This document shows, piece by piece, positions 1 through 41,349 of a stretch of DNA of 41,520 nucleotides. The number at the start of each line of letters is the position of its first letter. The first letter of the stretch is position 1. Both the position numbers and the translations under genes were made by a program. Under the pieces are notes generated by a model that was not told where the DNA came from, did not search any database, and saw nothing but the letters and a program-made list of their open reading frames with translations. The stretch is from Nitrososphaeria archaeon (GTDB taxonomy: Archaea > Thermoproteota > Nitrososphaeria > Nitrososphaerales > JACAEJ01), in contig JARVKB010000021.1 of assembly GCA_029775925.1 (NCBI GenBank), forward strand, positions 1-41,520, written 5' to 3'.

Positions 1-3000
1 GTAGATCTTGTTGATGTAGATGTTCCTCGACTCTCAGGAATCTCATTAAAGAGAATTGAAAGTCACAATTGCATGGTTCCCTGAGAAGGACTATATAACC
101 CGAATCTCATTAAAGAGAATTGAAAGCAACTGTAAAGCCTTGATTCTGCAGTGCGGTTATTTCCTCAGAATCTCATTAAAGAGAATTGAAAGCTACAACT
201 GTGAAATAAGTAACAGAACCATCCGGCTCTGGAATCTCATTAAAGAGAATTGAAAGTATAATGTTTACAAAGTCTCATTCTTTCACCTTCTCCAGAATCT
301 CATTAAAGAGAATTGAAAGGTCACGGTGCCACTAAGGGCGAATGTACCCCTAACTCTCAGAATCTCATTAAAGAGAATTGAAAGTTCGCCATTGATTATT
401 TAGTATTCCGTACTGCAACAGTGAATCTCATTAAAGAGAATTGAAAGTAAACATTCTTATTGTTGCTTCATCAAAAACTTTAAGAATCTCATTAAAGAGA
501 ATTGAAAGTTAACGGAAAGTGAGATTGTAGCTATCAACTCATTCTTGAATCTCATTAAAGAGAATTGAAAGCTGGTACATCAGACACCAGTTATAATACT
601 ACACTCTCACTGAATCTCATTAAAGAGAATTGAAAGTGAGGAAAAACCGTCTATTCCAGAAACCCCCACCGGAATCTCATTAAAGAGAATTGAAAGTTTT
701 ATTGTTTTCGTACACTCCGAAGAACTTAATCCTGATGAATCTCATTAAAGAGAATTGAAAGTTACTAAAAACGGAATGTTTACGAGATGAATGTGCATGA
801 ATCTCATTAAAGAGAATTGAAAGATATGGAGTAGCCCAATTTTCGAACTTCGGTAGGTAGTAGAATCTCATTAAAGAGAATTGAAAGTGAAACTACATCA
901 TAACCTTTATCTTTGAAGTACTTGAGGAATCTCATTAAAGAGAATTGAAAGGGTACTTTAGTAGGCTGGCCTTGAACCTCGACGGTTGTTGAATCTCATT
1001 AAAGAGAATTGAAAGTTTTCTATCATTTTTTGAATCTCTTTATCAGCAACATGAATCTCATTAAAGAGAATTGAAAGAAAAGAAATGTTAGCCATGATTC
1101 AAACAATAAGCCTGGAATCTCATTAAAGAGAATTGAAAGAGGACAGATTATGCACATTTGAGAAAAGAATTATCACCTGAATCTCATTAAAGAGAATTGA
1201 AAGCAAGAAGTGAAAGAGTGAATAGGCATTGCATATTGATCTTGAATCTCATTAAAGAGAATTGAAAGAGATTGCCTCATAAAATTTAAGTGGTTCTAAT
1301 TCAACTGAATCTCATTAAAGAGAATTGAAAGCTTTTATTCTCAAATGTCAGATAATATATGTCGTTGTCGTGAATCTCATTAAAGAGAATTGAAAGTATC
1401 TCTTTTTCAGTAAATCCTATTTGTTTTAATAGAATCTCATTAAAGAGAATTGAAAGTGGCAACCAGCGATAGCAAGACTAAATCCCTCTGAGAATCTCAT
1501 TAAAGAGAATTGAAAGTATAGCATCATGAAGATCTTTAGGCCTGAATTCAAAAGAATCTCATTAAAGAGAATTGAAAGACTTGTGGATTTATGTTAGTTG
1601 TAGATACTCCTATGAGAATCTCATTAAAGAGAATTGAAAGTATAGCATCATGAAGATCTTTAGGCCTGAATTCAAAAGAATCTCATTAAAGAGAATTGAA
1701 AGACTTGTGGATTTATGTTAGTTGTAGATACTCCTATGAGAATCTCATTAAAGAGAATTGAAAGCTGTCAGGTGTTGGGGCAACTGAAAGTGGCCCATAG
1801 TGAATCTCATTAAAGAGAATTGAAAGGTAGTGATTTCACTTGGTATTTGGGTCCATGATGCTGAGAATCTCATTAAAGAGAATTGAAAGCATATTGCACC
1901 AACATCATCTTTCATAAGTTTTGATGAATCTCATTAAAGAGAATTGAAAGAAAAATACGGTTTAAGTGCTGTAATCGAACCACCATATAGGAATCTCATT
2001 AAAGAGAATTGAAAGATGAAAATTATGTTCATACCATGATTGTTGAAACTATTTGCGAATCTCATTAAAGAGAATTGAAAGTAGTAGGGCTATATTAATA
2101 TAGCCTCCTACTCCCGTAGGAATCTCATTAAAGAGAATTGAAAGAAAAGGAATAACGAAGGCGCAAGCAGATAGTCTTTATGGAATCTCATTAAAGAGAA
2201 TTGAAAGATAAAGAAAACTGAATACTTTAATAAAATAGCTAAAGAGAATCTCATTAAAGAGAATTGAAAGTCCTTTATATTAAAAATATAATCCCATATT
2301 TCATTATTAGAATCTCATTAAAGAGAATTGAAAGAACATCACTTGTATCATTGCTATGAATAACGCCCTTTCGTGAATCTCATTAAAGAGAATTGAAAGT
2401 GAATGTCAGCCTTATGGGCATCTTATTGTAATATGAATCTCATTAAAGAGAATTGAAAGATTTGCTGAAGTATCTTTATAGCCAATTGTAGATCGTTGAA
2501 TCTCATTAAAGAGAATTGAAAGTCAAAAGCTGGGTAATCAAGATAGCAACAGTTCGGAGGAATCTCATTAAAGAGAATTGAAAGTGAAAGATCAAAATGA
2601 CATTTTCTACCGCACTTTGGACGAATCTCATTAAAGAGAATTGAAAGTGAGGGCAAGGGGGGCAGTTCCAATCTCCTGCCCAAGAATCTCATTAAAGAGA
2701 ATTGAAAGATAGGAGTGAGCGATTGCGGTGCAACATCAACGCTAAATTGAATCTCATTAAAGAGAATTGAAAGCAGCAATCTTCAAGTATCCACTTCCTT
2801 ATGTCATTATGAATCTCATTAAAGAGAATTGAAAGTTATAGAATTTGAACACTTTTTCTCCTATCCACTCCTTTGAATCTCATTAAAGAGAATTGAAAGT
2901 CATATATCGTGTATGATGTTCACCATCAACATGGAGATCTCGGAATCTCATTAAAGAGAATTGAAAGCTCTAAATTCAATCTCATATCGTTTCGAGACTT

Positions 3001-3474
3001 CTTGAATCTCATTAAAGAGAATTGAAAGTATTTTATATGTGCCCTCTTCTTTGGTTGGACTCCAGATGAATCTCATTAAAGAGAATTGAAAGCAAGAGCT
3101 TTATTATTCATTTCTTTTTGGGTCATCTTTGAATCTCATTAAAGAGAATTGAAAGCTAAGTAAGAATAGTGCTTACAAAGTCTCATTCTCTCACGAATCT
3201 CATTAAAGAGAATTGAAAGCTTTTGTATCTGCCCAGTAACCATCAGTCAAAACCACCATAATGAATCTCATTAAAGAGAATTGAAAGTCTGTTCCAGAAG
3301 TTGTTATTCCTACCCCAACAGGAGAATCTCATTAAAGAGAATTGAAAGATCGTTGTTAAAACTCCAGCATGGTGAGACCAATACGAATCTCATTAAAGAG
3401 AATTGAAAGATTATGTTCTTGTCTAATACTTCTTTTGTAGCTAATATCTGAATCTCATTAAAGAGAATTGAATG
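1..3474 (+). CRISPR. CRISPR array, at least 55 repeats, truncated at left edge
   Basis: A 25-nt repeat that begins GAATCTCATT and ends AGAATTGAAAG recurs 55 times, first at 38-62 and last at 3450-3474. Spacers are 35-41 nt. Bases 1-37 are part or all of a further spacer, so the array continues to the left of the window. The last repeat has one substitution near its 3' end (ATTGAATG instead of ATTGAAAG), which marks the leader-distal end. The repeat 3' end ATTGAAAG matches the 8-nt crRNA 5' tag known from Sulfolobales type I-A/III systems, so transcription is rightward with the leader outside the window. Inside the repeat, TCTC and GAGA can pair around ATTAAA. The 124-bp unit 1492-1615 is repeated exactly at 1616-1739. 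The array converges on the cmr operon. Confidence 0.98.
1492..1739 (+). repeat. tandem duplication of two CRISPR repeat-spacer units
   Basis: The 124-bp segment 1492-1615 (two repeats and two 37-nt spacers, starting tatagcatcatg and acttgtggattt) is followed directly by an apparently exact copy at 1616-1739. This is a recombination product inside the array, not two independent acquisitions. Confidence 0.93.
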
Positions 3475-3955
3475 GAGAGCTTTATTCTCATTAGTAATAC
3501 TAAGCAACAAGAAGTTAAAAAGCCCTAGCTGTTTGGTTCTGTTGCATAATGCCTTACCTTCTGACAAAATTGTCCTACCTCTTTGCCAGTATCTTATTAA
3601 AGAGGAGTAATATCGTGTAATTTTCGTGAAGAGAGGCTCTAATTCTAGGTGTAAGTTACGCTTAGTGTGCCATTCCAAAACCATTTCATACTTTTTCAGA
3701 CAACTTGTTGTTTTATTGCTTGAGAGCACGCTATTTTTCTCTTTTACACCTGCATCTACCTGCTTAAATTATTTGAGCAATTTAATAAGAAATTAAGTTG
3801 TTATTAACAATTGTATTTTTGTTTCTGTTAAGAAGATACATCAGGACTTTTATCATTTACAGCTTTATCATACTGTATCCTCTATGCTTAAAGTAGGGCA
3901 TAGTAATACCTACCATGTCCCTTTGATCTCGATAACACGCACAGATTAATTTTCA
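3475..3955. other. intergenic between CRISPR trailer and cmr3
   Basis: About 480 bp separate the last repeat from the cmr3 stop codon. An open frame on the minus strand (3729 down to about 3477) runs on into the last repeats. Its non-repeat part contains RYWQRGRTILSEGKAL and similar text, but I do not recognise it, and its C-terminal part is only translated repeat. No tRNA or second repeat array is visible. Both converging transcripts must end here. Confidence 0.6.
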
Positions 3956-3964
3956 TTAATCTGT
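3941..3964. terminator. perfect hairpin at the end of cmr3
   Basis: ACAGATTAAT and ATTAATCTGT form a perfect 10-bp inverted repeat with a 4-nt loop, spanning the cmr3 stop codon. It sits where the rightward CRISPR transcript and the leftward cmr transcript converge. No T-run follows on either strand, so a classical terminator role is uncertain. It could instead be an mRNA 3'-end structure. Confidence 0.35.
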
Positions 3965-5020
3965 AGTAGGTATGATAGGCACAGGTATGATAGTTCCATA
4001 ACCTAAAACACTAGCCTCGCCAAAGGTCTTTTGATAAATCTCTTGAAGATCAAAATCTCCTTCTAGGAAGATAATGCTACCTGGCTTTAATGAAGTGTAA
4101 ATAGGCTTCCTCTTTTTCTCACTTATCATAAATCCGGCACCAAGAACCGTAGATTCTCCAATAATACCTTTAAACTTGAGATTCAAATTCTCGGTCCACT
4201 CTTTTACGTATTCTTCCACTTCTTTACCTCCCTTAAAGAGGGCTGGAGTAGCCAAATATAAAGCTAATAAACCATAATGCTTCTCTTGGCCATCCCAAAG
4301 CTGCTTCTTAATTTCATCCAAAATCTTATAGCCTTGCTGAAATGAAAGAAGAGCTATCCTTCCTTCGCCTCCAAATTTGACTGGTAGCTCTCGAGCTGAA
4401 GATAAACGTTCGACAATTTTGCCTCTAATTTCCGCTATAATGTCAATAAAGATCTTTTCAATCTCCTTACTTTTATCTATCATATAGTCGAGGTATTCAG
4501 CACTATAAAGAAAACCTTCCTTTGTAATTTTCATAATAATTCCTTCTCTCATCTGCAACCTAACACCAACTCTTATATTCTTTCTCACTTTAACATTAGG
4601 CTCGAACTTTTCCTTTTCCAGGTAGTTATCAAGTTGATTCAATAAGTTAGGTTTATAGGCTATTTTCTTCCATTTTTGTTCACATTTTTGCCTTATCTTT
4701 TCCATATTTAAGAAACCTTCAGATAGGCTATCTTCAACCATCAGCTCACGATTTAGCTTAATTAATGGCCCTCTCACTATTATATCACTTTCCAGAATAC
4801 TGATGTATTGTTCAAACCATTCCCCAGAGATAGGTGCAGGCTTTCCTAATTCTGAAACACAATATGTTGCTAGGGTTCCTGCTACCGTTGAGGGTGAGGG
4901 CATTGCTAAAGTTATAGCTCTGCTATAGGTGCCTCTAACAAAAGGATCGAACTCGCCTGCACCACGAAACATCATGGGTTCAATTATTCTAAAGATTATT
5001 GACACAGCCTCAGCCATCAC
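3956..5020 (-). CDS. cmr3: Cmr3, type III-B Cas5-like RAMP subunit
   Basis: The 354-residue protein is the Cas5-type RAMP that grips the 5' tag of the crRNA at the foot of the Cmr complex. The N-terminal text FRGAGEFDPFVRG (18-30) followed by PSPSTVAGTL (41-50) is the Cmr3 signature, and a C-terminal glycine-containing stretch (LGYGTIIPVP) matches the family end. The start overlaps the cmr2 stop (ATGA), so translation is coupled. A second ATG follows at once and either could be used. It is the last gene of the leftward cmr operon. Length is typical for the family. Confidence 0.92.
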   Translation of the reverse strand: MMAEAVSIIFRIIEPMMFRGAGEFDPFVRGTYSRAITLAMPSPSTVAGTLATYCVSELGKPAPISGEWFEQYISILESDIIVRGPLIKLNRELMVEDSLSEGFLNMEKIRQKCEQKWKKIAYKPNLLNQLDNYLEKEKFEPNVKVRKNIRVGVRLQMREGIIMKITKEGFLYSAEYLDYMIDKSKEIEKIFIDIIAEIRGKIVERLSSARELPVKFGGEGRIALLSFQQGYKILDEIKKQLWDGQEKHYGLLALYLATPALFKGGKEVEEYVKEWTENLNLKFKGIIGESTVLGAGFMISEKKRKPIYTSLKPGSIIFLEGDFDLQEIYQKTFGEASVLGYGTIIPVPIIPTTD

Positions 5021-8000
5021 TCTACACCTCTTAGACCAGACCTATAAAGCATCAGAGCTAGAAAGAACTGTTCCAAGAAAGGTAGTTCGTTATGGTCTAT
5101 CTTACATATTACATCGTAGTCTTGCATGAGCTTTTTAGTCCACGTCTCAACCATTTCCTTACTTTTCTGACTATTCTGAATCCTACAATTTCTTTCAAAG
5201 ATCCTCTTGAGTAGCTTTTCTAATAAAACTCCATTATTTCTATTAACAAGTGGTTTGATCGTATCAAGATTGTTATAGAGATCATATATTAATGATAAGG
5301 AAAAATTGTTTTTCTCTATCTCCAAGATAAGTTCATCAATATGCTTAAGACTTTTAGCTAGATTTTGATCTGGAGTCTTAATGTCTGAAAGGGGGAGTAG
5401 AGAGTAACACTCACCACCTTTCGGACTGTATAAAAGAACGATAGCATCTTTCTTCCTCGTCTCGCTATCTATCATCCACTTCGACTCTTTAGCTATCTCA
5501 TCCAATAACTCGGCCGATCTACTGATCGCTGTATATAGTGGGAACATATAATGGGTAAGGTATATGGAAAAGCTTCTACTAGCGGTAACCAAAGATGGTA
5601 TTAAGTATTTACTTATCTGATAAAAGCCCTTATATCGTTCTGATGGAAAGCTGAACTTCTCTCTTAGTTCTTGAACTGCATGTAATGAATCCTTGACAGG
5701 CGTTATAGCGAGAAGATCATCCCCTCCCACATAAATAGTTAAACCATCATGTTCATCGATTATCTTACTATCTCTTATTGCACTAGCCATCAAGGCCTTA
5801 CTAAGGGTTGAATGATACGATGGTGAAATTATAATCTCGTTTTTATCTTGAAGCTTAATAATGATATTTGATATTTCCTTTATTTTTTCGTCGATTTCCT
5901 TTACGTTATTTTCTTCACATATCTTTTTTGCTTTCTCGATATCGTTATTTACTATGGCTTTTACCACTTCTTTAGCAGATCCTTCCAACAAATTGCAAAG
6001 GTAATCTTTTATAGTAATTCTGAACCCATCTTCAACCTTGCCATGTATGATCTTACCTAAATTATCTCCATCACACCTTATAATAGCATAATAAGTGTTT
6101 AAATCCTCAATTCTCCTGTGTTTATGAATCTTTTTTCTAATTTCTAACCAATCTCTTCTTGGATTATAATATTTCTCTTGTCCATTCTCCTTGAATATAT
6201 GGGTTTTTAAAAAGCATTCTTCAGCATCTAAATATAATAACATCTCAAGATCTTCTTTTAATTCATCAGATTTCAAATTTCTAATGCTTTCTGCTAATTT
6301 ACGTTCGATATGTGTTATAGGCTCTCTACCAACTAGAGGTATTCTTTTTACTTTTATTTTCTCCCAGATTTCCTTAATCCATCCATTTAGCTCATTAGTA
6401 AGATCTTGAATATTGTCAATTTTCATAGCATTATTAATAAATGATTTTTTGAATGGCATGAGTGCTATATCGGAAACAGACGGAAATCTAAATTTAGGCA
6501 ACTTTTCTGAAATTTTTCCTAACAACCCATCCATGACTGATTTAAGCACTTTGCTAGTACTTATGAATCTTTTAATTAGACAATAAGGGCAAAGACGTTC
6601 GCCCATGCCAAAAATAGGTTCGATTTCCCTCTTTAAGTAACTCTTGTAATCGTTCTCATCTGAAGGAATAATGATAATTGCTGGTAAATAACCACATACG
6701 CTACAGTACTCAAAGCCCCTATCTGATTTCTTCGGCCAGGTTACAATAGGCTGTGAAGTCATCTCAAAAAGCTTCAAATCCTCTTCTGGCCTAAATTTAT
6801 AGAGCTTCCTCCTATGTTCTTCATAGCTTAAAAGTTTGAACATATAGTGGTATATACTGTATCGCCCTTCTTTAAAGTCCAGCTCACGAAGCTTATTGGT
6901 GTGAAGTGCTATGACCCTAATTGGTAATGGAGGAGTTGTATCAAACCCAAATTTTTTACATTCGTTTAAAAGCCTTTCCGCTTCTATAGCTAAATTACCA
7001 AATTCGCTTTGTAAATTCTTACAATTTTCAATAACTTTATCGTAAACGTTTTTCCATACTTCCTGATACTTTTTCTTCACAAACTCCTCTAGACTTTCTA
7101 GTCCCTTTTCAACTTCAATCTCCTTGAACTCATTAAACTCCCTTAGTTGCTCTAGCTCTGGTAGCATAAATGTGGCTGTTACTGGAACTACGGCATACCT
7201 TGGTATTGCATCAATATCTGGGTTGTAGTCTGCAAATTCATTTGATATTCTTTTAATCTTTTCTATTACATCCTCATTAATACCGTTTCCAGTTAGCAAT
7301 GAAATCAAGCTGTGATAATAAAACGAATTTCCTCTACATGTAGGTAAAACCATTACATCAGGGCCAAGTGCTCTTACAAAAATCCAAAAGATGCTCCAAG
7401 CAAGTGCAGAAGCAAGATAACTCGATAACCAAAGGTCTCTGAGCTTTCTTGAGCTTGATATGAACTTTTGTACCCCTCCTAAATCTATATATAATAGTAT
7501 TCCCTTAGGTTCTTCGTTTTCTAGGAGCCAGTTCATCATCGATGCAGTTGCATAATTATGATCGAAAATACTATGAGAAGGTGCTCTGGTATCTGCGGGA
7601 CTGACTGGAAGCCCTAGTTGTATCCATGTAGTCTCATAGCTAGCGTATAGTACGTGATAGGCAAGTTGGGGATCGAGTATATGCTCAATAACCTTCTTTA
7701 AAGCCTCGATAAATTCTTTTGTAGGGGTTTGTTCTTGCTCAATCTTCTGGGAAAATTTAGGGTTAAATATGTTCTTGAGTTTAATCTCATTCTCTCGAAA
7801 TTTACCATATTCTTTACCTATAAGCTTGCTCAGTAACCATCTATCAACACTTGAAGCTAGCATATCAGCTGGCTTTGTGATCTCCTCCATTCTTTCTATA
7901 GCTTCTTTAAGACATGTATTCTCTAAAACATTAGTGGCGATGTATCTTGCTTCCTCTTTATGATCCCTATCATCTCTGATGAGCCAAGCTTTATTTGGAG

Positions 8001-8049
8001 GATCGTGGAGCAGGCAAGCTGTCTTTAAAATGAAGATATTCTTGATCAA
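5017..8049 (-). CDS. cmr2: Cmr2/Cas10, large subunit and cyclic oligoadenylate synthase
   Basis: This is the 1010-residue Cas10 of a type III-B effector. The N-terminus carries LLHDPPNK with H15-D16, the HD-domain signature of Cmr2. A zinc finger is formed by C449/C452 and C487/C490. Two palm domains follow: the first has DGDN (660-663), the second GGDD (775-778), the catalytic motif for making cyclic oligoadenylates from ATP when target RNA is bound. Because GGDD is intact, second-messenger signalling is expected, and the CARF gene at the head of the operon fits that. Whether the HD domain cuts DNA cannot be judged from sequence alone. It starts 4 nt after cmr6 and overlaps cmr3. Confidence 0.96.
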   Translation of the reverse strand: MIKNIFILKTACLLHDPPNKAWLIRDDRDHKEEARYIATNVLENTCLKEAIERMEEITKPADMLASSVDRWLLSKLIGKEYGKFRENEIKLKNIFNPKFSQKIEQEQTPTKEFIEALKKVIEHILDPQLAYHVLYASYETTWIQLGLPVSPADTRAPSHSIFDHNYATASMMNWLLENEEPKGILLYIDLGGVQKFISSSRKLRDLWLSSYLASALAWSIFWIFVRALGPDVMVLPTCRGNSFYYHSLISLLTGNGINEDVIEKIKRISNEFADYNPDIDAIPRYAVVPVTATFMLPELEQLREFNEFKEIEVEKGLESLEEFVKKKYQEVWKNVYDKVIENCKNLQSEFGNLAIEAERLLNECKKFGFDTTPPLPIRVIALHTNKLRELDFKEGRYSIYHYMFKLLSYEEHRRKLYKFRPEEDLKLFEMTSQPIVTWPKKSDRGFEYCSVCGYLPAIIIIPSDENDYKSYLKREIEPIFGMGERLCPYCLIKRFISTSKVLKSVMDGLLGKISEKLPKFRFPSVSDIALMPFKKSFINNAMKIDNIQDLTNELNGWIKEIWEKIKVKRIPLVGREPITHIERKLAESIRNLKSDELKEDLEMLLYLDAEECFLKTHIFKENGQEKYYNPRRDWLEIRKKIHKHRRIEDLNTYYAIIRCDGDNLGKIIHGKVEDGFRITIKDYLCNLLEGSAKEVVKAIVNNDIEKAKKICEENNVKEIDEKIKEISNIIIKLQDKNEIIISPSYHSTLSKALMASAIRDSKIIDEHDGLTIYVGGDDLLAITPVKDSLHAVQELREKFSFPSERYKGFYQISKYLIPSLVTASRSFSIYLTHYMFPLYTAISRSAELLDEIAKESKWMIDSETRKKDAIVLLYSPKGGECYSLLPLSDIKTPDQNLAKSLKHIDELILEIEKNNFSLSLIYDLYNNLDTIKPLVNRNNGVLLEKLLKRIFERNCRIQNSQKSKEMVETWTKKLMQDYDVICKIDHNELPFLEQFFLALMLYRSGLRGVE

Positions 8050-8053
8050 GAAA

Positions 8054-8941
8054 TCACCTTACAGGTTCATAGCTTACTATCTCGAATCTTGAGTAACCTA
8101 CTGCTGTCTTAGCACCAACGCCTCTGTAGAAGGAGTAGAGCAAACCACGATCTAATATGCCTAGCTTGTTGATGTCTTGAACTGGAGTTTCAGCCAGATC
8201 GGATTCTTGTGAATCTTTTATAATGAGTCGCCTCTTCCTCTCACCACCCCCTCTTTCCTTTTTATAGAAAAGATAGAACTGAAATTTAGTTCCTGGTGCT
8301 ATGGTAAGATAAATTATTGGTGTAGGTGATACATCCAGCTCTGTAGCTGTATCGCTTTTATAGTGGGGAGACATTACATCAGGGTAGAGTAGATAGCCCT
8401 TCTCACCCTTCTCAATGGGATATGCATCAGTAAAACCGATAAGACCAGCGCTTTTATCATCACCGAAGAGCCTCCCACACTCCCTATTGGCTTCTTTCTT
8501 AGAAGCCTTCTGCTTAAGTAGTAAATCAAATACTCCAGAACGAACAGCACCTTTTATCGTTGAGCCTGGTATGTAAGGAACGTTCAATATCGGGTCAAAG
8601 TATAAGCCCACCTCGAATGGTATCTCGCCAAAGGTCTCTGCCGTTCCTATAAGACCCCTAGATATAGCTTTAATTTTCACGCTTCTTAACTCGTAAGCAC
8701 AGCTTAGAAAAGCTTGCCGAGTATTCTCAAGAATTTGGCTAATTTCTTTAGTGGGTAACCCCGCCTTTTTGATTATATATTCTAATATTTTATATTCTAA
8801 TATTTTTCGCTCTTCTTCTTTTACCTTCTCTCGCTCCTCTTTAGCTTTCCTTATCATCACACCATAACCAGCTAACGCTATATAGCTCCATAAATTAGGC
8901 TTAGTTAATGAATCAAAATCAATATCAATCATATTTGACAT
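8054..8941 (-). CDS. cmr6: Cmr6, RAMP subunit
   Basis: This Cas7-like RAMP of 295 residues belongs to the backbone head of the Cmr complex. The motif YIPGSTIKGAVRSGVFDLL (123-141) is the RAMP glycine loop, and FGDDKSAGLIGFTDAYP is typical of Cmr6. Residues 48-56 contain a small repeat (ILEYKILEY) produced by a short tandem duplication in the DNA near 8775-8806. The start overlaps the end of cmr1 by 13 nt. A second in-frame ATG at codon 4 is possible. Confidence 0.92.
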   Translation of the reverse strand: MSNMIDIDFDSLTKPNLWSYIALAGYGVMIRKAKEEREKVKEEERKILEYKILEYIIKKAGLPTKEISQILENTRQAFLSCAYELRSVKIKAISRGLIGTAETFGEIPFEVGLYFDPILNVPYIPGSTIKGAVRSGVFDLLLKQKASKKEANRECGRLFGDDKSAGLIGFTDAYPIEKGEKGYLLYPDVMSPHYKSDTATELDVSPTPIIYLTIAPGTKFQFYLFYKKERGGGERKRRLIIKDSQESDLAETPVQDINKLGILDRGLLYSFYRGVGAKTAVGYSRFEIVSYEPVR

Positions 8942-10479
8942 AATTTTTTAACCTTTTCGAATGCGTAATCATAAACATTTTGAAGAAAATTGCCCTTTTG
9001 AGGAGAATTGCCAATAGGAATATCTCTGACCAACTTTTCACGATCCGGTTGATTTTTACGCCTAATGTGCAATAGATCTTTTGGCCAGTCATCAGATAGT
9101 AGCCCAAAGACAATGATGAAGTTCTTACTTTGAGTCTTAAAGCATCTAGCGCCGATGGATGATATTCTTCTTAGAGTTTCATACTCATAATTTATTTTTC
9201 TAGCGTATCCTGTTTCTTCTTGGAATCTGGGTAATCCTAATATCCAAGTATGTAGATTCCTCCCTTTCATTTTAAAACTTTGTTTCCAAGTCTGTTTAAC
9301 AAAAGCATTTCCTATCTTAACGGGATCTAAGGACGAGCATTCAATCACTTCTATCTTGATGTTGCTTAATGATGGGACAATAGGGATATCATTAAATTCT
9401 TGTATCCCGCTTATATTAAGTAGCCTTTTAGCAAAGTTGATTGTAATATTACATAGATCTTCGAGCGTCTCCTTTAGCTCATCCTTAGTGAACTCCTTGC
9501 CTTGCAAATCTTGAAAAATCTTTCGAATTTCTTGATTAATTTTAAGCTCATCCTTAAATCTAAATGAGAGTAATCTTAACGAACCAAAAGCTCTCTTTGT
9601 CATCGAACCGACACCCCCTAAAATTAAGGAGAGCAAAAGGGATGAGAGAGCAAAGTTGACTTTTTCTGAGTCTTTGTTCCCATAAAGTAAAATCTTGAAC
9701 TTTAACCCCTTGCTCACTAATGCTGCCATTTCTTCCTTCACCCTTTCCATGTATCTTGTTATTTTTTCGGAATCGATATTAGTCCGGTTGAGACTATCTT
9801 CTTCCTCCTTTCCTCGTTTCATTAGTAATAATCTTACCCTAGGTATTTGCAGATAGTCATTCGATTTAGGGAATCGTAAAGTAATAACAATCCTGTAGTC
9901 TTTTTTCCCTAGCTTACTACTAAGAAAGTAATCCTTTAAGGGACCTTGCTTAATTAATTTGTCTATACGATCCTTATGTTGGTTTAATGGTATTCTATCA
10001 TGTTCTATAATTACAGCACTAGTAGAAGGATTTAATGTTACTGAGACTTTAGTATTATTTGGTAAACCCAATTGTGCCTCTTGATTCATCAAGAAATCTT
10101 TAGCTTTCTCGTAAAAATTGTCTATCTCATTATTGATTTGGGTTAGGTTAGCTTCTAAATTTGTAGGAAAGTCAAAGATTTCTAACCTAAATAATGAAAC
10201 TCCTTTGTCTGGACTGACTAAGATCTTATTTAATTCTTCGTTCGCTTTTTTATAATTAACTTTTCCATTATAGGCACCAACGATAGCAGTTCTTGCCCAC
10301 CATCGCCAAACACCTTTCAAGGACTTAGCTGTTAGTGCATTAAGAAGGTTTAGCTTTAAGCTATAAGGTGTAGCTTTGTAACCACCTATTCTTGTAAAGG
10401 TGATAGTTTCTACATCGATTTCAGCTATAAATTCATGATCTTTTGCTATCTTTTCTTGGATCAATAGCCAAGAACTCAT
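8929..10479 (-). CDS. cmr1: Cmr1, RAMP subunit
   Basis: The protein has 516 residues. The segment IGGYKATPYS (31-40) followed by SLKGVWRWWAR (53-63) is the diagnostic Cmr1 signature. Cmr1 is a double-RAMP protein at the head of the type III-B complex that engages the 3' end of the guide and target RNA. A second glycine-rich stretch, LILGGVGSMTKRAFGSLRLL, in the middle of the protein fits the second RAMP half. The start overlaps the cmr5 stop by 4 nt and the end overlaps cmr6 by 13 nt, consistent with one transcript. Confidence 0.93.
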   Translation of the reverse strand: MSSWLLIQEKIAKDHEFIAEIDVETITFTRIGGYKATPYSLKLNLLNALTAKSLKGVWRWWARTAIVGAYNGKVNYKKANEELNKILVSPDKGVSLFRLEIFDFPTNLEANLTQINNEIDNFYEKAKDFLMNQEAQLGLPNNTKVSVTLNPSTSAVIIEHDRIPLNQHKDRIDKLIKQGPLKDYFLSSKLGKKDYRIVITLRFPKSNDYLQIPRVRLLLMKRGKEEEDSLNRTNIDSEKITRYMERVKEEMAALVSKGLKFKILLYGNKDSEKVNFALSSLLLSLILGGVGSMTKRAFGSLRLLSFRFKDELKINQEIRKIFQDLQGKEFTKDELKETLEDLCNITINFAKRLLNISGIQEFNDIPIVPSLSNIKIEVIECSSLDPVKIGNAFVKQTWKQSFKMKGRNLHTWILGLPRFQEETGYARKINYEYETLRRISSIGARCFKTQSKNFIIVFGLLSDDWPKDLLHIRRKNQPDREKLVRDIPIGNSPQKGNFLQNVYDYAFEKVKKLCQI

Positions 10480-10940
10480 CTTCTTTCGCCTTCTGCCTTA
10501 AATACTGCTTCAGATAATTTCTTCATCTGAACTATATAAGGCCTAAGAAGTCTGTTTGCTACCCTTTCTTTTCCTTCTGAAATCTTTTCTAAAGCCTTGA
10601 TAGGATCATCCAAATAAGTTTCTTCTATCAGCTTAAGTTCCTTCAACCTTTTTAGCATTAAATAAAAATAGATACCATAGCCTTTCTCCGTAGGATTATT
10701 TCCATCAATCTTACCTCCTTTTCTCAATTCGCTCTTTACCTTTTCATAAATATCCTTACTAGCTTTTGCATAACAAAAGCTAAGAGCTGGAACGAGACCT
10801 ACATCCTCTATAAGGCTTGGTATCTCTCTACACCTGCTTCTAAAGCTCTTACCTATTTCGCTTTGTTCTTTATTCTCTAATGATTCTAATAAATCCTTGA
10901 AATCTTTTATGGCGATAAGTATGTGGTCATTTGTACTCAT
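10476..10940 (-). CDS. cmr5: Cmr5, small (Cas11-type) subunit
   Basis: This small helical protein of 154 residues forms the minor filament alongside Cmr4 and Cmr2. The pattern FRSRCREIPSLIEDVGLVPALSF (33-55, basic residues, P, G) matches the Cmr5 family. It overlaps cmr4 upstream by 14 nt and cmr1 downstream by 4 nt. Family assignment rests on size, helical composition, this motif and operon position. Confidence 0.88.
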   Translation of the reverse strand: MSTNDHILIAIKDFKDLLESLENKEQSEIGKSFRSRCREIPSLIEDVGLVPALSFCYAKASKDIYEKVKSELRKGGKIDGNNPTEKGYGIYFYLMLKRLKELKLIEETYLDDPIKALEKISEGKERVANRLLRPYIVQMKKLSEAVFKAEGERR

Positions 10941-11877
10941 TTAACTTTTCCCCCATGAATTCAAGCTTTACTATACCTCTCCCAATGGTCTCATTACCGC
11001 CTATAATCAGATAGTTCCCCGTTCTACTGAGTAGTTCATGGACCTTTTCCTTAACTTCACACGCTCTTTCCAATCCTCTCCCAATTTTCTTAGCCTTGGA
11101 ATATAAGAACATTGTAGCAAAGGTTGTGTTCCAAGGAACGTACTCCTCTGTCCATAAAGCACCTTCCTTAGCCGTTTTACTTTCTCTATCAATGGCTATT
11201 CGAGTTACTCTGACCAAAGATTTCTCTAGAGCTCTTAATGCATCATTATCATTAAGTATGATAAGCCTCCCTTGCTCTATATCAAATAATTTTTCGAGCT
11301 TTTCAATATTATCGGATTGATCAGTTTTACATTCTACACATATCTCTTCATTGATAACTAGTTTATTATTTAATACCTTAACTCCAAGAAGATCTTCAGC
11401 CTTTTTGGATGTTTGACATATACCATTACTTATCGATATATTTGATAATTCTTTTACATATTCATGCTTATTACTAATAATTCTCAAGAACTCGCTAAGA
11501 CGCTTAATTAATAATGGAGAAGTCACAAATGCATATACTCCTTCTAGACTCCTTACTGGAAATGTAACTGTAAATGCATCGAGTAGAGCTACTGCTGATG
11601 TGAACTTTTCTTCATCAGGTTCAGGACCAAATAGAACCTTTACATCATCTTCATCTTTACTTACATTAGGGAGTTGCCAAAATGCACTCTTTAAAGCTCC
11701 TTTAAGGCTTGATGAATATATAATGGGAAAACCAAGGTTATCCTTTTGAACTGGTAGGTCGATAATTCCACCTATCTTTCCTACGCCAGGATGAAGATTT
11801 GTAATAGCTTTAATTAAAACCAGTTCAAAATCCTCATACGGGCTTATAACGATATCATTTACACTCATTGTCCTCAA
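10927..11877 (-). CDS. cmr4: Cmr4, Cas7 backbone and target-RNA nuclease
   Basis: This is the repeated backbone subunit that cuts target RNA at 6-nt intervals. The text HPGVGKIGGIIDLPVQ (29-44) followed by GFPIIYSSSLKGALKSAF is the Cmr4 signature. D40, in the IIDLP turn, sits where the catalytic aspartate of the family is expected. Length (316) is usual. The longest frame starts with TTG overlapping the upstream stop (TTGA); an ATG three codons downstream (11868) is an equally good start, preceded by GAGG. It follows the CARF gene with no gap, suggesting coupled translation. Confidence 0.93.
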   Translation of the reverse strand: MRTMSVNDIVISPYEDFELVLIKAITNLHPGVGKIGGIIDLPVQKDNLGFPIIYSSSLKGALKSAFWQLPNVSKDEDDVKVLFGPEPDEEKFTSAVALLDAFTVTFPVRSLEGVYAFVTSPLLIKRLSEFLRIISNKHEYVKELSNISISNGICQTSKKAEDLLGVKVLNNKLVINEEICVECKTDQSDNIEKLEKLFDIEQGRLIILNDNDALRALEKSLVRVTRIAIDRESKTAKEGALWTEEYVPWNTTFATMFLYSKAKKIGRGLERACEVKEKVHELLSRTGNYLIIGGNETIGRGIVKLEFMGEKLNEYK

Positions 11878-12671
11878 CTTCCAAACATTACATGGTAGAG
11901 AAGTCTTCCTATAGGTGATATTTCATAGTAACCATCAACCTCTTTTATGAGCCAGTAATCGTCTTCCATTTGTTCAGCTAATTCTATGCCAAATTTTTTA
12001 TAAAAATCGTTCTTATCGATTCTCTTATTGATAAGCTCTATGAGAGGAGCAGAGAACTTTTCCATTAATTGGTAACGCCATTCGACAGGAAAACCAGGTA
12101 TGGCTACATGCATCTTAAAAAATTCATGCCTATAATATACCGGGATACCTTGAAGATTTGCTATTAAAGTCACAATTGAAGTCTCAGGTTTGAAACCACC
12201 AGTAGCACATATGTAGACCTTGTCATGTCCTTTATGCTTTTTTATAAGTCCCCATGTCTTTAAAGCTAGATTAGGTATTCCTTCGCGCTGAAATGATATC
12301 TCATCTTTATATCCTTTGATTACCTCTCTTATCGTATAAACCCCACGCTTTTTTAAATAGGATTGAAGAGCATATGAGCAAACATCGCCAACTTCTGTAT
12401 CTGTGTAAAGTAAGTAAGCTTGGTCGATCTTGCCCTTATCTAGAAAAGCCCACATAGTAGCTAACTCTGCGCATGCAGTATCTTTCTTATTCTCTAAGTA
12501 TTGCAATAACTTATTATGAAGTTCGTTTCTGTTTATAACTCCTGCTGTTAATCCTTTCTCTATATCCTCTATTCTTGTCGTGTTCTTTAAAATTTCTTTT
12601 ACTTCAACAACCTGACTCGCTGCGTTACTTATTAAACTCGCACCAACAGTAACAATATGGATTTTACTCAT
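11874..12671 (-). CDS. CARF-domain protein, APE2256-like; possible ring nuclease
   Basis: This 265-residue protein opens the cmr operon. Its Rossmann-like CARF fold shows the two ligand loops VTVGASLISNAA (7-18) and ICATGGFKPE (154-163). These are the hallmarks of the APE2256/Sso1393-type CRISPR family, which binds cyclic tetra-adenylate. S12 and K161 correspond to residues important in Crn1 ring nucleases. There is no HEPN domain (no R-x4-6-H) in the C-terminal part, which looks like a small winged-helix tail. A ring nuclease or a signal-sensing regulator is therefore more likely than a Csx1/Csm6 RNase. GGTGAT lies 7 nt before the ATG and a TATA box further upstream. Confidence 0.82.
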   Translation of the reverse strand: MSKIHIVTVGASLISNAASQVVEVKEILKNTTRIEDIEKGLTAGVINRNELHNKLLQYLENKKDTACAELATMWAFLDKGKIDQAYLLYTDTEVGDVCSYALQSYLKKRGVYTIREVIKGYKDEISFQREGIPNLALKTWGLIKKHKGHDKVYICATGGFKPETSIVTLIANLQGIPVYYRHEFFKMHVAIPGFPVEWRYQLMEKFSAPLIELINKRIDKNDFYKKFGIELAEQMEDDYWLIKEVDGYYEISPIGRLLYHVMFGS

Positions 12672-39757: not shown

Positions 39758-39989
39758 TCTAATTTTTTAATCTTTTAATAGATTTCATCGTTATTGTTCC
39801 TGCAATCATCTTTACTAGTGGAAGATTATCAAAAATTTTTCAAATCTTTCTATAATTTTCATTGTTCTGAGTTTGTAATTAAGCTTAGGTGGTAGAGGAA
39901 CCAAGACAACACCTTGAATTCTCAAAATCTTAAGTCCCGCATTTTTATGCATGATTTGTAATTTCCATGGGATAAACCTCAGAGCACAC

Positions 39990-40193
39990 ATTCTTTTATT
40001 AAGAGAGAGGAAGATACCTTTAGAAGATCTGGCCTTCAATGTGATGATAGGAAAACCTCCAAGCAAGTATACAGAAACAACACCCCAACATGTAAAAGCA
40101 GCTCAGTTATTAATAAGCAGAGGCCAAGAAGTAAAAGCTGGAGAGATAATATCTTTTGTTAACATTCTTCATTCTAAATATTTTCTCTTTTAA
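39990..40193 (+). pseudogene. C-terminal remnant of a family-B DNA polymerase
   Basis: The frame reads LRERKIPLEDLAFN, then KYTETTPQHVKAAQLLISRG, then QEVKAGEIISFV. The pattern Y...TPQHVKAA..L...G..VK.G..I..V is the thumb/C-terminal end of family-B DNA polymerases. Upstream exonuclease and palm motifs are absent: pheT ends 230 bp earlier. The piece is therefore a fragment left by deletion or insertion, and the tail diverges from the family. Confidence 0.75.
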
Positions 40194-40250
40194 AACTATA
40201 AAAGCATATTAGGAGAAAAGCTTAACCTATAGCATTTAATTAAATTTTAT

Positions 40251-40335
40251 GGCTCCTGTCGTAAAGCTCGCTGACGGCCCTAGCAGATAAAAGATGAAGT
40301 ATAGGGTTTACCCAGGCGAGCGACAGACAGGAGCT
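40251..40335 (+). ncRNA. candidate structured RNA with long hairpin
   Basis: GCTCCTGTC (40252-40260) pairs perfectly with GACAGGAGC (40326-40334). After an internal loop (GTAAA/GACA), GCTCGC (40266-40271) pairs with GCGAGC (40316-40321). Further in, CCCTA (40278) pairs with TAGGG (40302). The region is much more GC-rich than its surroundings, as expected of a stable RNA in a thermophile. The order of stems and internal loops resembles a guide RNA (H/ACA-like), but no clear ACA box follows. A small mobile element with terminal inverted repeats is an alternative. Confidence 0.55.
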
Positions 40336-40929
40336 AAAAATTTGGATTTGTTTATAATCATAGTTAAATCAATATAGAGTTGGATAAAGCATCTATAAGC
40401 AAAGAGCCAGAGCTAAGGCCAACGATATCATTTCAAATAATTCTTCATAACAAATCAGATAGACTGTAAAGTCTAATAGTATTAAATATGCAATCCACTT
40501 TAATCTACCAAAAGAAGATGGTAATTCAGAATTTAAAATAATAGCTCGTGGTTCTATTCTTACAAAGTTTTTAATAGTACTGAATCGAGCATTCCTATTA
40601 CTTTAGAGATCGAGATTCCGCATTTTAAGAGTGCTTTATCTAAGTAAAATAATTAAATCATCGATATAAGGTAAGTTAGAAATATGTGCATTTTTTGATC
40701 AAATCCGAGTACCTTATCAGCCTCCCTTTTCTAGAGATTGTATCCTTGCTTATGAGTACTTGCCAGACTTTCCTATTAGTGGTATAGTTTGTAGAATTCA
40801 GAGTCCCTATAGAAGGATGGGAAGTATTTGCAAAAAGGGTTGAATTATTTTTCTTTAGCCTTAAAAATGAAAATAATACTTATATTCATAAAAAATCTTA
40901 ATAATTATTAATTTACTTAAAGGGTTATC

Positions 40930-41349
40930 ATGATAGAGGATATGTTGAATCAGGATACACTCCAAGAATTAATTCTATTTACACGTAAGTTGAATGATGA
41001 ATGTAAAAATGGGGCTTTAGTCGTCGTCGAGGGGCAAAGAGACGCAAAAGCCCTTGAGTCGATAGGCTTTAAAGGAGATATCTTTTTGCTTTGCCATAAT
41101 GAGAGCTTAGTAAAATTAGCATCTAAATCTGAAGAATACGAAAAGATAATACTTCTTCTCGACTTTGATAAGAAAGGAAGAATATTAACAAAAAAGGCTG
41201 CTACGATCCTTCAAGAAAAGAGAAGCAAGATAGATCTATTCTTCAGAAGAGAACTTTCTAAGGTTTGTAAAGGGAGAGTAAAGCATGTAGAAGAGCTGAG
41301 TAAATTTAGTGATTATCTTCAAAACTTGGCCTATCCCGTTTATTTATAG
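40930..41349 (+). CDS. TOPRIM-domain protein (UPF0292-like)
   Basis: The 139-residue protein is a lone TOPRIM fold. VVVEGQRDAKALESIG carries the conserved glutamate, and ILLLDFDKKGR carries the DxD pair, the magnesium-binding signature of topoisomerase/primase domains. Small archaeal TOPRIM proteins of this type are related to RNase M5 and are of unproven function. It is followed by, and overlaps with, a JAMM/MPN gene. Confidence 0.85.
   Translation: MIEDMLNQDTLQELILFTRKLNDECKNGALVVVEGQRDAKALESIGFKGDIFLLCHNESLVKLASKSEEYEKIILLLDFDKKGRILTKKAATILQEKRSKIDLFFRRELSKVCKGRVKHVEELSKFSDYLQNLAYPVYL

Follow-up and report, generated by a model that had tools for sequence, protein, structure and literature searches.

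A probable box H/ACA guide RNA of Nitrososphaeria with a candidate target in the peptidyl-transferase centre

Archaeal H/ACA particles carry Cbf5 as their catalytic protein, and the canonical H/ACA guide pocket leaves two target nucleotides unpaired. According to the published rule, a GA stem of 10 pairs lies 14-16 nt from the ACA box, with 14-15 nt being productive (PMC4652768). In the haloarchaeon Haloarcula, m3U2584 and psi2586 have been described, and a Pf7/Pab40-related (HgcG-type) H/ACA hairpin of Haloferax (H. volcanii) has been proposed to guide psi2586, with a second hairpin proposed for 1915/1917 (PMC2584109). The guide RNAs of Nitrososphaeria, including those of the abundant ammonia-oxidising archaea, are scarcely annotated. 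Here we describe an element at positions 40251-40335 of a stretch of 41,520 nucleotides from a Nitrososphaeria archaeon (contig JARVKB010000021.1 of assembly GCA_029775925.1; hereafter, the window) that resembles these RNAs in its architecture and departs from them in its geometry.

Structure and copy number of the element

The plus strand of positions 40241-40345 folds with an energy of -44.3 kcal/mol, compared with -23.2 +/- 3.2 for 200 dinucleotide shuffles, none of which folded as well (z -6.5); the minus strand of the same segment folds more weakly (z -4.9). A sequence-only reading had described a 9-bp outer stem, a 6-bp inner stem and a third stem stacked with internal loops, and folding recovers just this arrangement, in which the 9-bp outer stem is lengthened by A-T pairs and the third stem is formed by GG(CCCTA) / (TAGGG)TT. 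That reading was also right in placing the GC content far above the neighbourhood (0.548 in the element against 0.295 in the flanks; 0.341 in the whole window). An Rfam search of the element and its surroundings produced no family at or above threshold (tRNA, RNase P, SRP and others), which rules out tRNA and 5S identities and agrees with the earlier failure to see a tRNA, 5S or SRP match. RNase P RNA (RF00373) and SRP RNA (RF01857), neither of which gave a covariance match at the element, are found at separate loci elsewhere in the same genome.

The earlier choice between a structured RNA and a small inverted-repeat element can be settled in favour of the former. The element occurs once in its own genome, with no dispersed copies of the kind that would mark a mobile element, and compensatory changes, whose absence from relatives would have told against an RNA, are abundant there. 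A long inverted repeat lying amid decayed genes could be taken for a mobile element, yet the single copy per genome found throughout refutes this explanation, and the strong covariation, conserved loops and conserved gene neighbour also oppose it, so that its probability is negligible. It is nearly certain that the element is a structured, conserved RNA gene. The features of the locus, in window coordinates, are as follows.

40213..40229, plus strand: promoter-like stretch GAGAAAAGCTTAACCTA, predicted from sequence, about 23-30 nt upstream of the outer stem
40252..40260, plus strand: outer (basal) stem, 5' strand GCTCCTGTC; folding, compensatory changes in 9/9 basal pairs within the family
40266..40271, plus strand: lower stem of the putative H/ACA unit, 5' strand GCTCGC; compensatory changes in 5/6 pairs
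40272..40277, plus strand: predicted 5' guide TGACGG; ACGG in 30/30 covariance-model rows, complementary to 23S CCGUC
40278..40285, plus strand: GA stem, 5' strand; compensatory changes in 8/9 upper-stem pairs
40286..40297, plus strand: kink-loop GA UAAAA GAUGA, as read from sequence; GAUGA conserved in the alignment
40298..40306, plus strand: GA stem, 3' strand AGTATAGGG; folding and covariation
40310..40315, plus strand: predicted 3' guide ACCCAG; ACCCA in 30/30 covariance-model rows, complementary to 23S CUGGGU
40316..40321, plus strand: lower stem, 3' strand GCGAGC; covariation
40323..40325, plus strand: ACA box, 8 nt after ACCCA; spacing identical in all covariance-model rows
40326..40334, plus strand: outer (basal) stem, 3' strand GACAGGAGC; folding and covariation
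40930..41349, plus strand: gene for a small TOPRIM protein; Pfam Toprim E 4e-10, NCBIfam PRK04017 models, synteny

The promoter-like stretch is kept as GAAAAGCTTAACCT in the family relatives L002-L007, and TATA-like A/T stretches occur at a similar distance upstream in other families. Positions 40252-40334 are the predicted transcript of a small RNA gene.

Conservation and H/ACA features of the hairpins

BLAST-level searches detected copies with 87-96% identity in six genomes from the window's own family, and showed that another family shares the short conserved core GGTTTACCCAGGCG.GCGACAGAC. With a covariance model of the window hairpin, hereafter hairpin I, 71 of 400 genomes of the order gave a match, always as a single copy (model R1), and a broader model (R3) found one copy in 34 of the 41 near-complete Nitrososphaerales genomes. 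Family f10 is represented among the latter, by which the carriers appear to include ammonia oxidisers. R3 also found copies elsewhere in the phylum (families f20, f22, f56 and more). Five genomes of family f8 searched with R3 (G013, G027, G036, G044, G051) gave no hairpin I match: here the hairpin either has been lost or is too divergent for the model to detect; families related to f8 do carry it.

Among 30 model-aligned homologs (set A6), pairing holds in 93.7% of cells, 23 of the 29 base pairs have changed on both sides, and 170 cells show both-side changes, compared with 51 +/- 7 in shuffles (0 of 500 as good), all counts being biased toward the model structure to which this alignment was fitted. 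The signal vanishes when the pairing partners are slid. In the outer stem, covariation is visible by eye (CTCCTGTC/GACAGGAG, TCCCTATC/GATAGGGA, TCTCCATC/GATGGAGA, ATGCCCGC/GCGGGCAT, TTCAACAA/TTGTTGAA). Covariance-model alignments were used because MAFFT did not align the ACGG strand correctly from one family to another. The invariance of ACGG and ACCCA is claimed for the 30 model-found rows only, and rows gathered by regular expression were set aside for this purpose, since both motifs are fixed there by construction.

The constant unpaired parts are the 5' ACGG and 3' ACCCA strands, the ACA that follows the latter and the apical GA ... GAUGA. Hairpin I can be read as an H/ACA unit with a lower stem of 6-7 bp, a pocket made of ACGG and ACCCA, and a stem-loop-stem architecture with a kink-turn or kink-loop, the ACA box lying 3' of the lower stem. 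In homologs from families f16 and f2 (L086, L098-L100), the GA stem counts 10 pairs up to the second G.A pair; its cap is a kink-turn in f11, as in many other relatives that have a full kink-turn in place of the window's kink-loop. With the pocket read in this manner, 16 nt separate the GA stem from the ACA, and hairpin I thus combines a 10-pair GA stem with a spacing inside the 14-16 nt range; if two invariant G.U wobble pairs are closed, the distance becomes 14 nt, as is typical of productive folds (14-15 nt), and the GA stem 12 pairs. The genome encodes Cbf5 (410.6 bits). A C/D box guide was considered and rejected, as GAUGA belongs to the kink-turn and a CUGA-like word is not conserved.

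Judged by these sequence features, the element is very probably an archaeal box H/ACA guide RNA, which takes a one-hairpin form in the genus of the window (g1). The initial hint at an archaeal guide RNA thereby gains substance from the H/ACA features, and the accompanying remark that box motifs were not clear has to be amended: an ACA box is present after all, at 40323-40325, and had been missed because it lies in an internal loop, shut off by the outer stem, and not at a free 3' end. In a partial coverage of the literature, we found no description of an archaeal H/ACA RNA whose ACA is enclosed by an outer stem. In an assembled particle, the ACA box would be the binding site of Cbf5 and the kink-loop that of L7Ae.

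Outside genus g1, a second H/ACA unit, hairpin II, lies 3' of hairpin I; it ends in ...GTCAGAG(A/G)CGGGnnACA, and 8 of its 12 RNAalifold pairs are compensatory. The hairpin II pocket fits 23S AGUAACUCUGAC-U-C-UCUUAAGG, with the ACA 14 nt away, and follows the two-sided complementarity rule (U and one nucleotide unpaired) at U1921 in E. coli numbering, as counted from 1915/1917. This site is the clear best in three genomes (score 26.6 versus 18.3 for the next), and the target pattern has no occurrence in shuffled rRNA. The yeast equivalent of 1921 is 2264, by the offset in PMC2584109. In several lineages the 5' half of the pairing is weak, and in parts of f10, f13 and f17 the 3' guides have drifted; the f10 versions read GUCAGUG, GUCAGGU and GUCAGAG (L170, L175, L176, L180), and the 23S site, where readable, is unchanged. 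At three loci (L193 in G012, L199 in G008 and L204 in G424), the 23S gene is interrupted immediately ahead of CUUAAGGUAGC, at a point within or adjoining the hairpin II target; these interruptions are probably introns, whose splicing could interact with guide access. A hairpin II model (R2) matched 7/7 tested genomes outside g1 and 0/3 within it, from which we conclude that the genus of the window has lost hairpin II.

In most families (L007, L011, L019, L020, L086-L091, L177 and others), including f20 outside the order, a PRK04017-like TOPRIM gene lies 3' of the RNA on the same strand. Its kin are uncharacterised PRK04017 proteins, and RNase M5 is included among its NCBIfam relatives at a low score, a faint and distant similarity. 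Given such a neighbour, the RNA might form the leader of the TOPRIM gene or regulate it in cis, or might serve the RNase M5-like protein as a substrate, but the conserved loops fit H/ACA features and 23S, not a ribosome-binding site or terminator, 600 nt of decayed sequence intervene between the RNA and the gene in the window, and several families (e.g. L094, L095, L100) have no TOPRIM match within the fetched flank. We regard this explanation as highly improbable next to an H/ACA guide; a functional link of the association with RNA processing is possible. The intervening segment, at 40368-40865, is a decayed gene copy with frameshifts and stops, and G001 and G002 carry an intact version of this gene (~180 aa) in the same place. 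On the other side of the RNA, a short ORF at 39951-40193 resembles the C-terminal part of family B DNA polymerase (PF00136, E 4.6e-5, just below the curated cut-off) and is apparently a gene fragment. Farther away, positions 2423-12671 hold ORFs containing repeats, in which LSILFNEI / FQFSLMRF is the recurring motif (a read-through of CRISPR-like repeats), adjoining a minus-strand gene run that resembles a type III CRISPR-Cas set, both as judged by eye.

A candidate 23S target of hairpin I

The two pocket strands of hairpin I, ACCCAG and (U)GACGG, are complementary to 23S CUGGGU-UUAGA-CCGUC on both sides of a gap. We take CUGGGU to be E. coli C2579-U2584 and CCGUC to be C2590-C2594, so that U2585 and U2586 lie in the gap. 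This numbering agrees with 2584/2586 in PMC2584109. The pattern CTGGGT-N0-7-CCGTC has a single occurrence in 23S, at the peptidyl-transferase centre (PTC); of shuffled 16S+23S sets, 0.7-1.3% contain it. Among 18 23S genes, 17 have the CTGGGTTTAGACCGTC site, the remaining one (G424) having U in place of the initial C of the site (TTGGGT...). Uninterrupted 23S genes show no variation at the target sites. The energies of the two PTC duplexes are -7.9 and -8.9 kcal/mol. Another candidate, 16S CCGCCUGGGGAGUACGG, had a close score in some genomes and was dropped, as it does not go with the conserved guide in all of them. On this complementarity, the PTC is probably the target of the window hairpin.

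The predicted PTC pairing leaves five target nucleotides (UUAGA) and three guide nucleotides on the 3' side (UUU in the window) unpaired. A scan of 16S and 23S under the strict rule (psi and one unpaired target nucleotide) found no target for hairpin I, and looser scans gave many weak matches before the conserved PTC site stood out. Five unpaired target nucleotides are outside the published productive geometry, which, together with the strict-rule result for 16S and 23S, would fit an H/ACA-derived RNA that no longer serves, or never served, PTC pseudouridylation and acts as a folding chaperone of 23S domain V or as a guide for a U in tRNA or another RNA. Against this stand the preservation of the complementary strands and the ACA spacing across the phylum, the pseudouridylation of the same spot in haloarchaea (PMC2584109), and the adjoining hairpin II, which targets 23S canonically. 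We therefore consider such a role unlikely and prefer a guide directed at the PTC.

As a PTC guide, hairpin I would pair its strands UGACGG and ACCCAG with 23S CCGUC and CUGGGU, presenting U2585 or U2586 for isomerisation. We favour U2586 over U2585 because it is placed 14 nt from the ACA, as is the hairpin II target, and is a known archaeal pseudouridine; this choice implies a U.U mismatch at 2585, and for psi2586 specifically as the predicted product the chances seem to us about even. A wider proposal, put forward tentatively and with less than even confidence, is that hairpin I represents a distinct, phylum-wide H/ACA class in which the ACA is clamped by the outer helix and the pocket holds UUAGA, a PTC loop of five nucleotides. 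The hairpin would either flip U2586 (or U2585) in a non-canonical manner or serve as an essential folding chaperone of domain V; genus g1, with hairpin I alone, would then reveal the part of the RNA that cannot be lost.

Relationship to described H/ACA RNAs

The Rfam model of HgcG (Pab40, RF00064) aligns end to end, over positions 1-276, with the f2 homolog L100 (28.1 bits, E 5e-6). This best homolog scores far below the HgcG gathering threshold of 77 bits, and the match, significant and sub-threshold, indicates a distant relative of HgcG and not an accepted member. RF00064 gave no match to the window element, and homologs outside f2 scored lower or not at all; Rfam thresholds were reached by none of the homologs examined. 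The kind of RNA, if H/ACA, is thus a known one; what is new is a branch unrecognised by RNA databases, half of whose gene has been lost in the lineage of the window. A phylum-wide, single-copy RNA apparently aimed at the PTC offers a concrete prediction of ribosome modification for uncultured groups, and since a PTC guide is known from haloarchaea, an ancient origin is suggested.

HgcG/Pab40/Pf7 and its Haloferax relative (HP1/HP2) likewise consist of several H/ACA hairpins per RNA and have the same order of predicted targets, the first hairpin being directed at the PTC (2586) and the second at the helix 69 region. Unlike in those RNAs, hairpin I here has its ACA shut in by an extra basal stem, hairpin II fits U1921 instead of 1915/1917, and the genus of the window keeps hairpin I only. 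The H/ACA-like sR207 of Pyrobaculum, to judge from its published description, provides a parallel in its GA stem, which has 12 pairs with two wobble pairs closed and for which a productive 10-pair alternative has been proposed (PMC4652768); its lower stem, in contrast, is short (3 bp). With the canonical H/ACA sRNAs of Pyrococcus abyssi, hairpin I shares a lower stem, a two-sided pocket, a 10-pair GA stem, a kink-turn or kink-loop and an ACA box. In the Pyrococcus RNAs, however, the ACA normally belongs to a free 3' tail and is separated from the GA stem by 14-15 nt, and the target gap is 2 nt. Hairpin I has a distance of 16 nt and a gap of 5 nt, and the geometry of its pocket is unusual when set against the accepted H/ACA rules.
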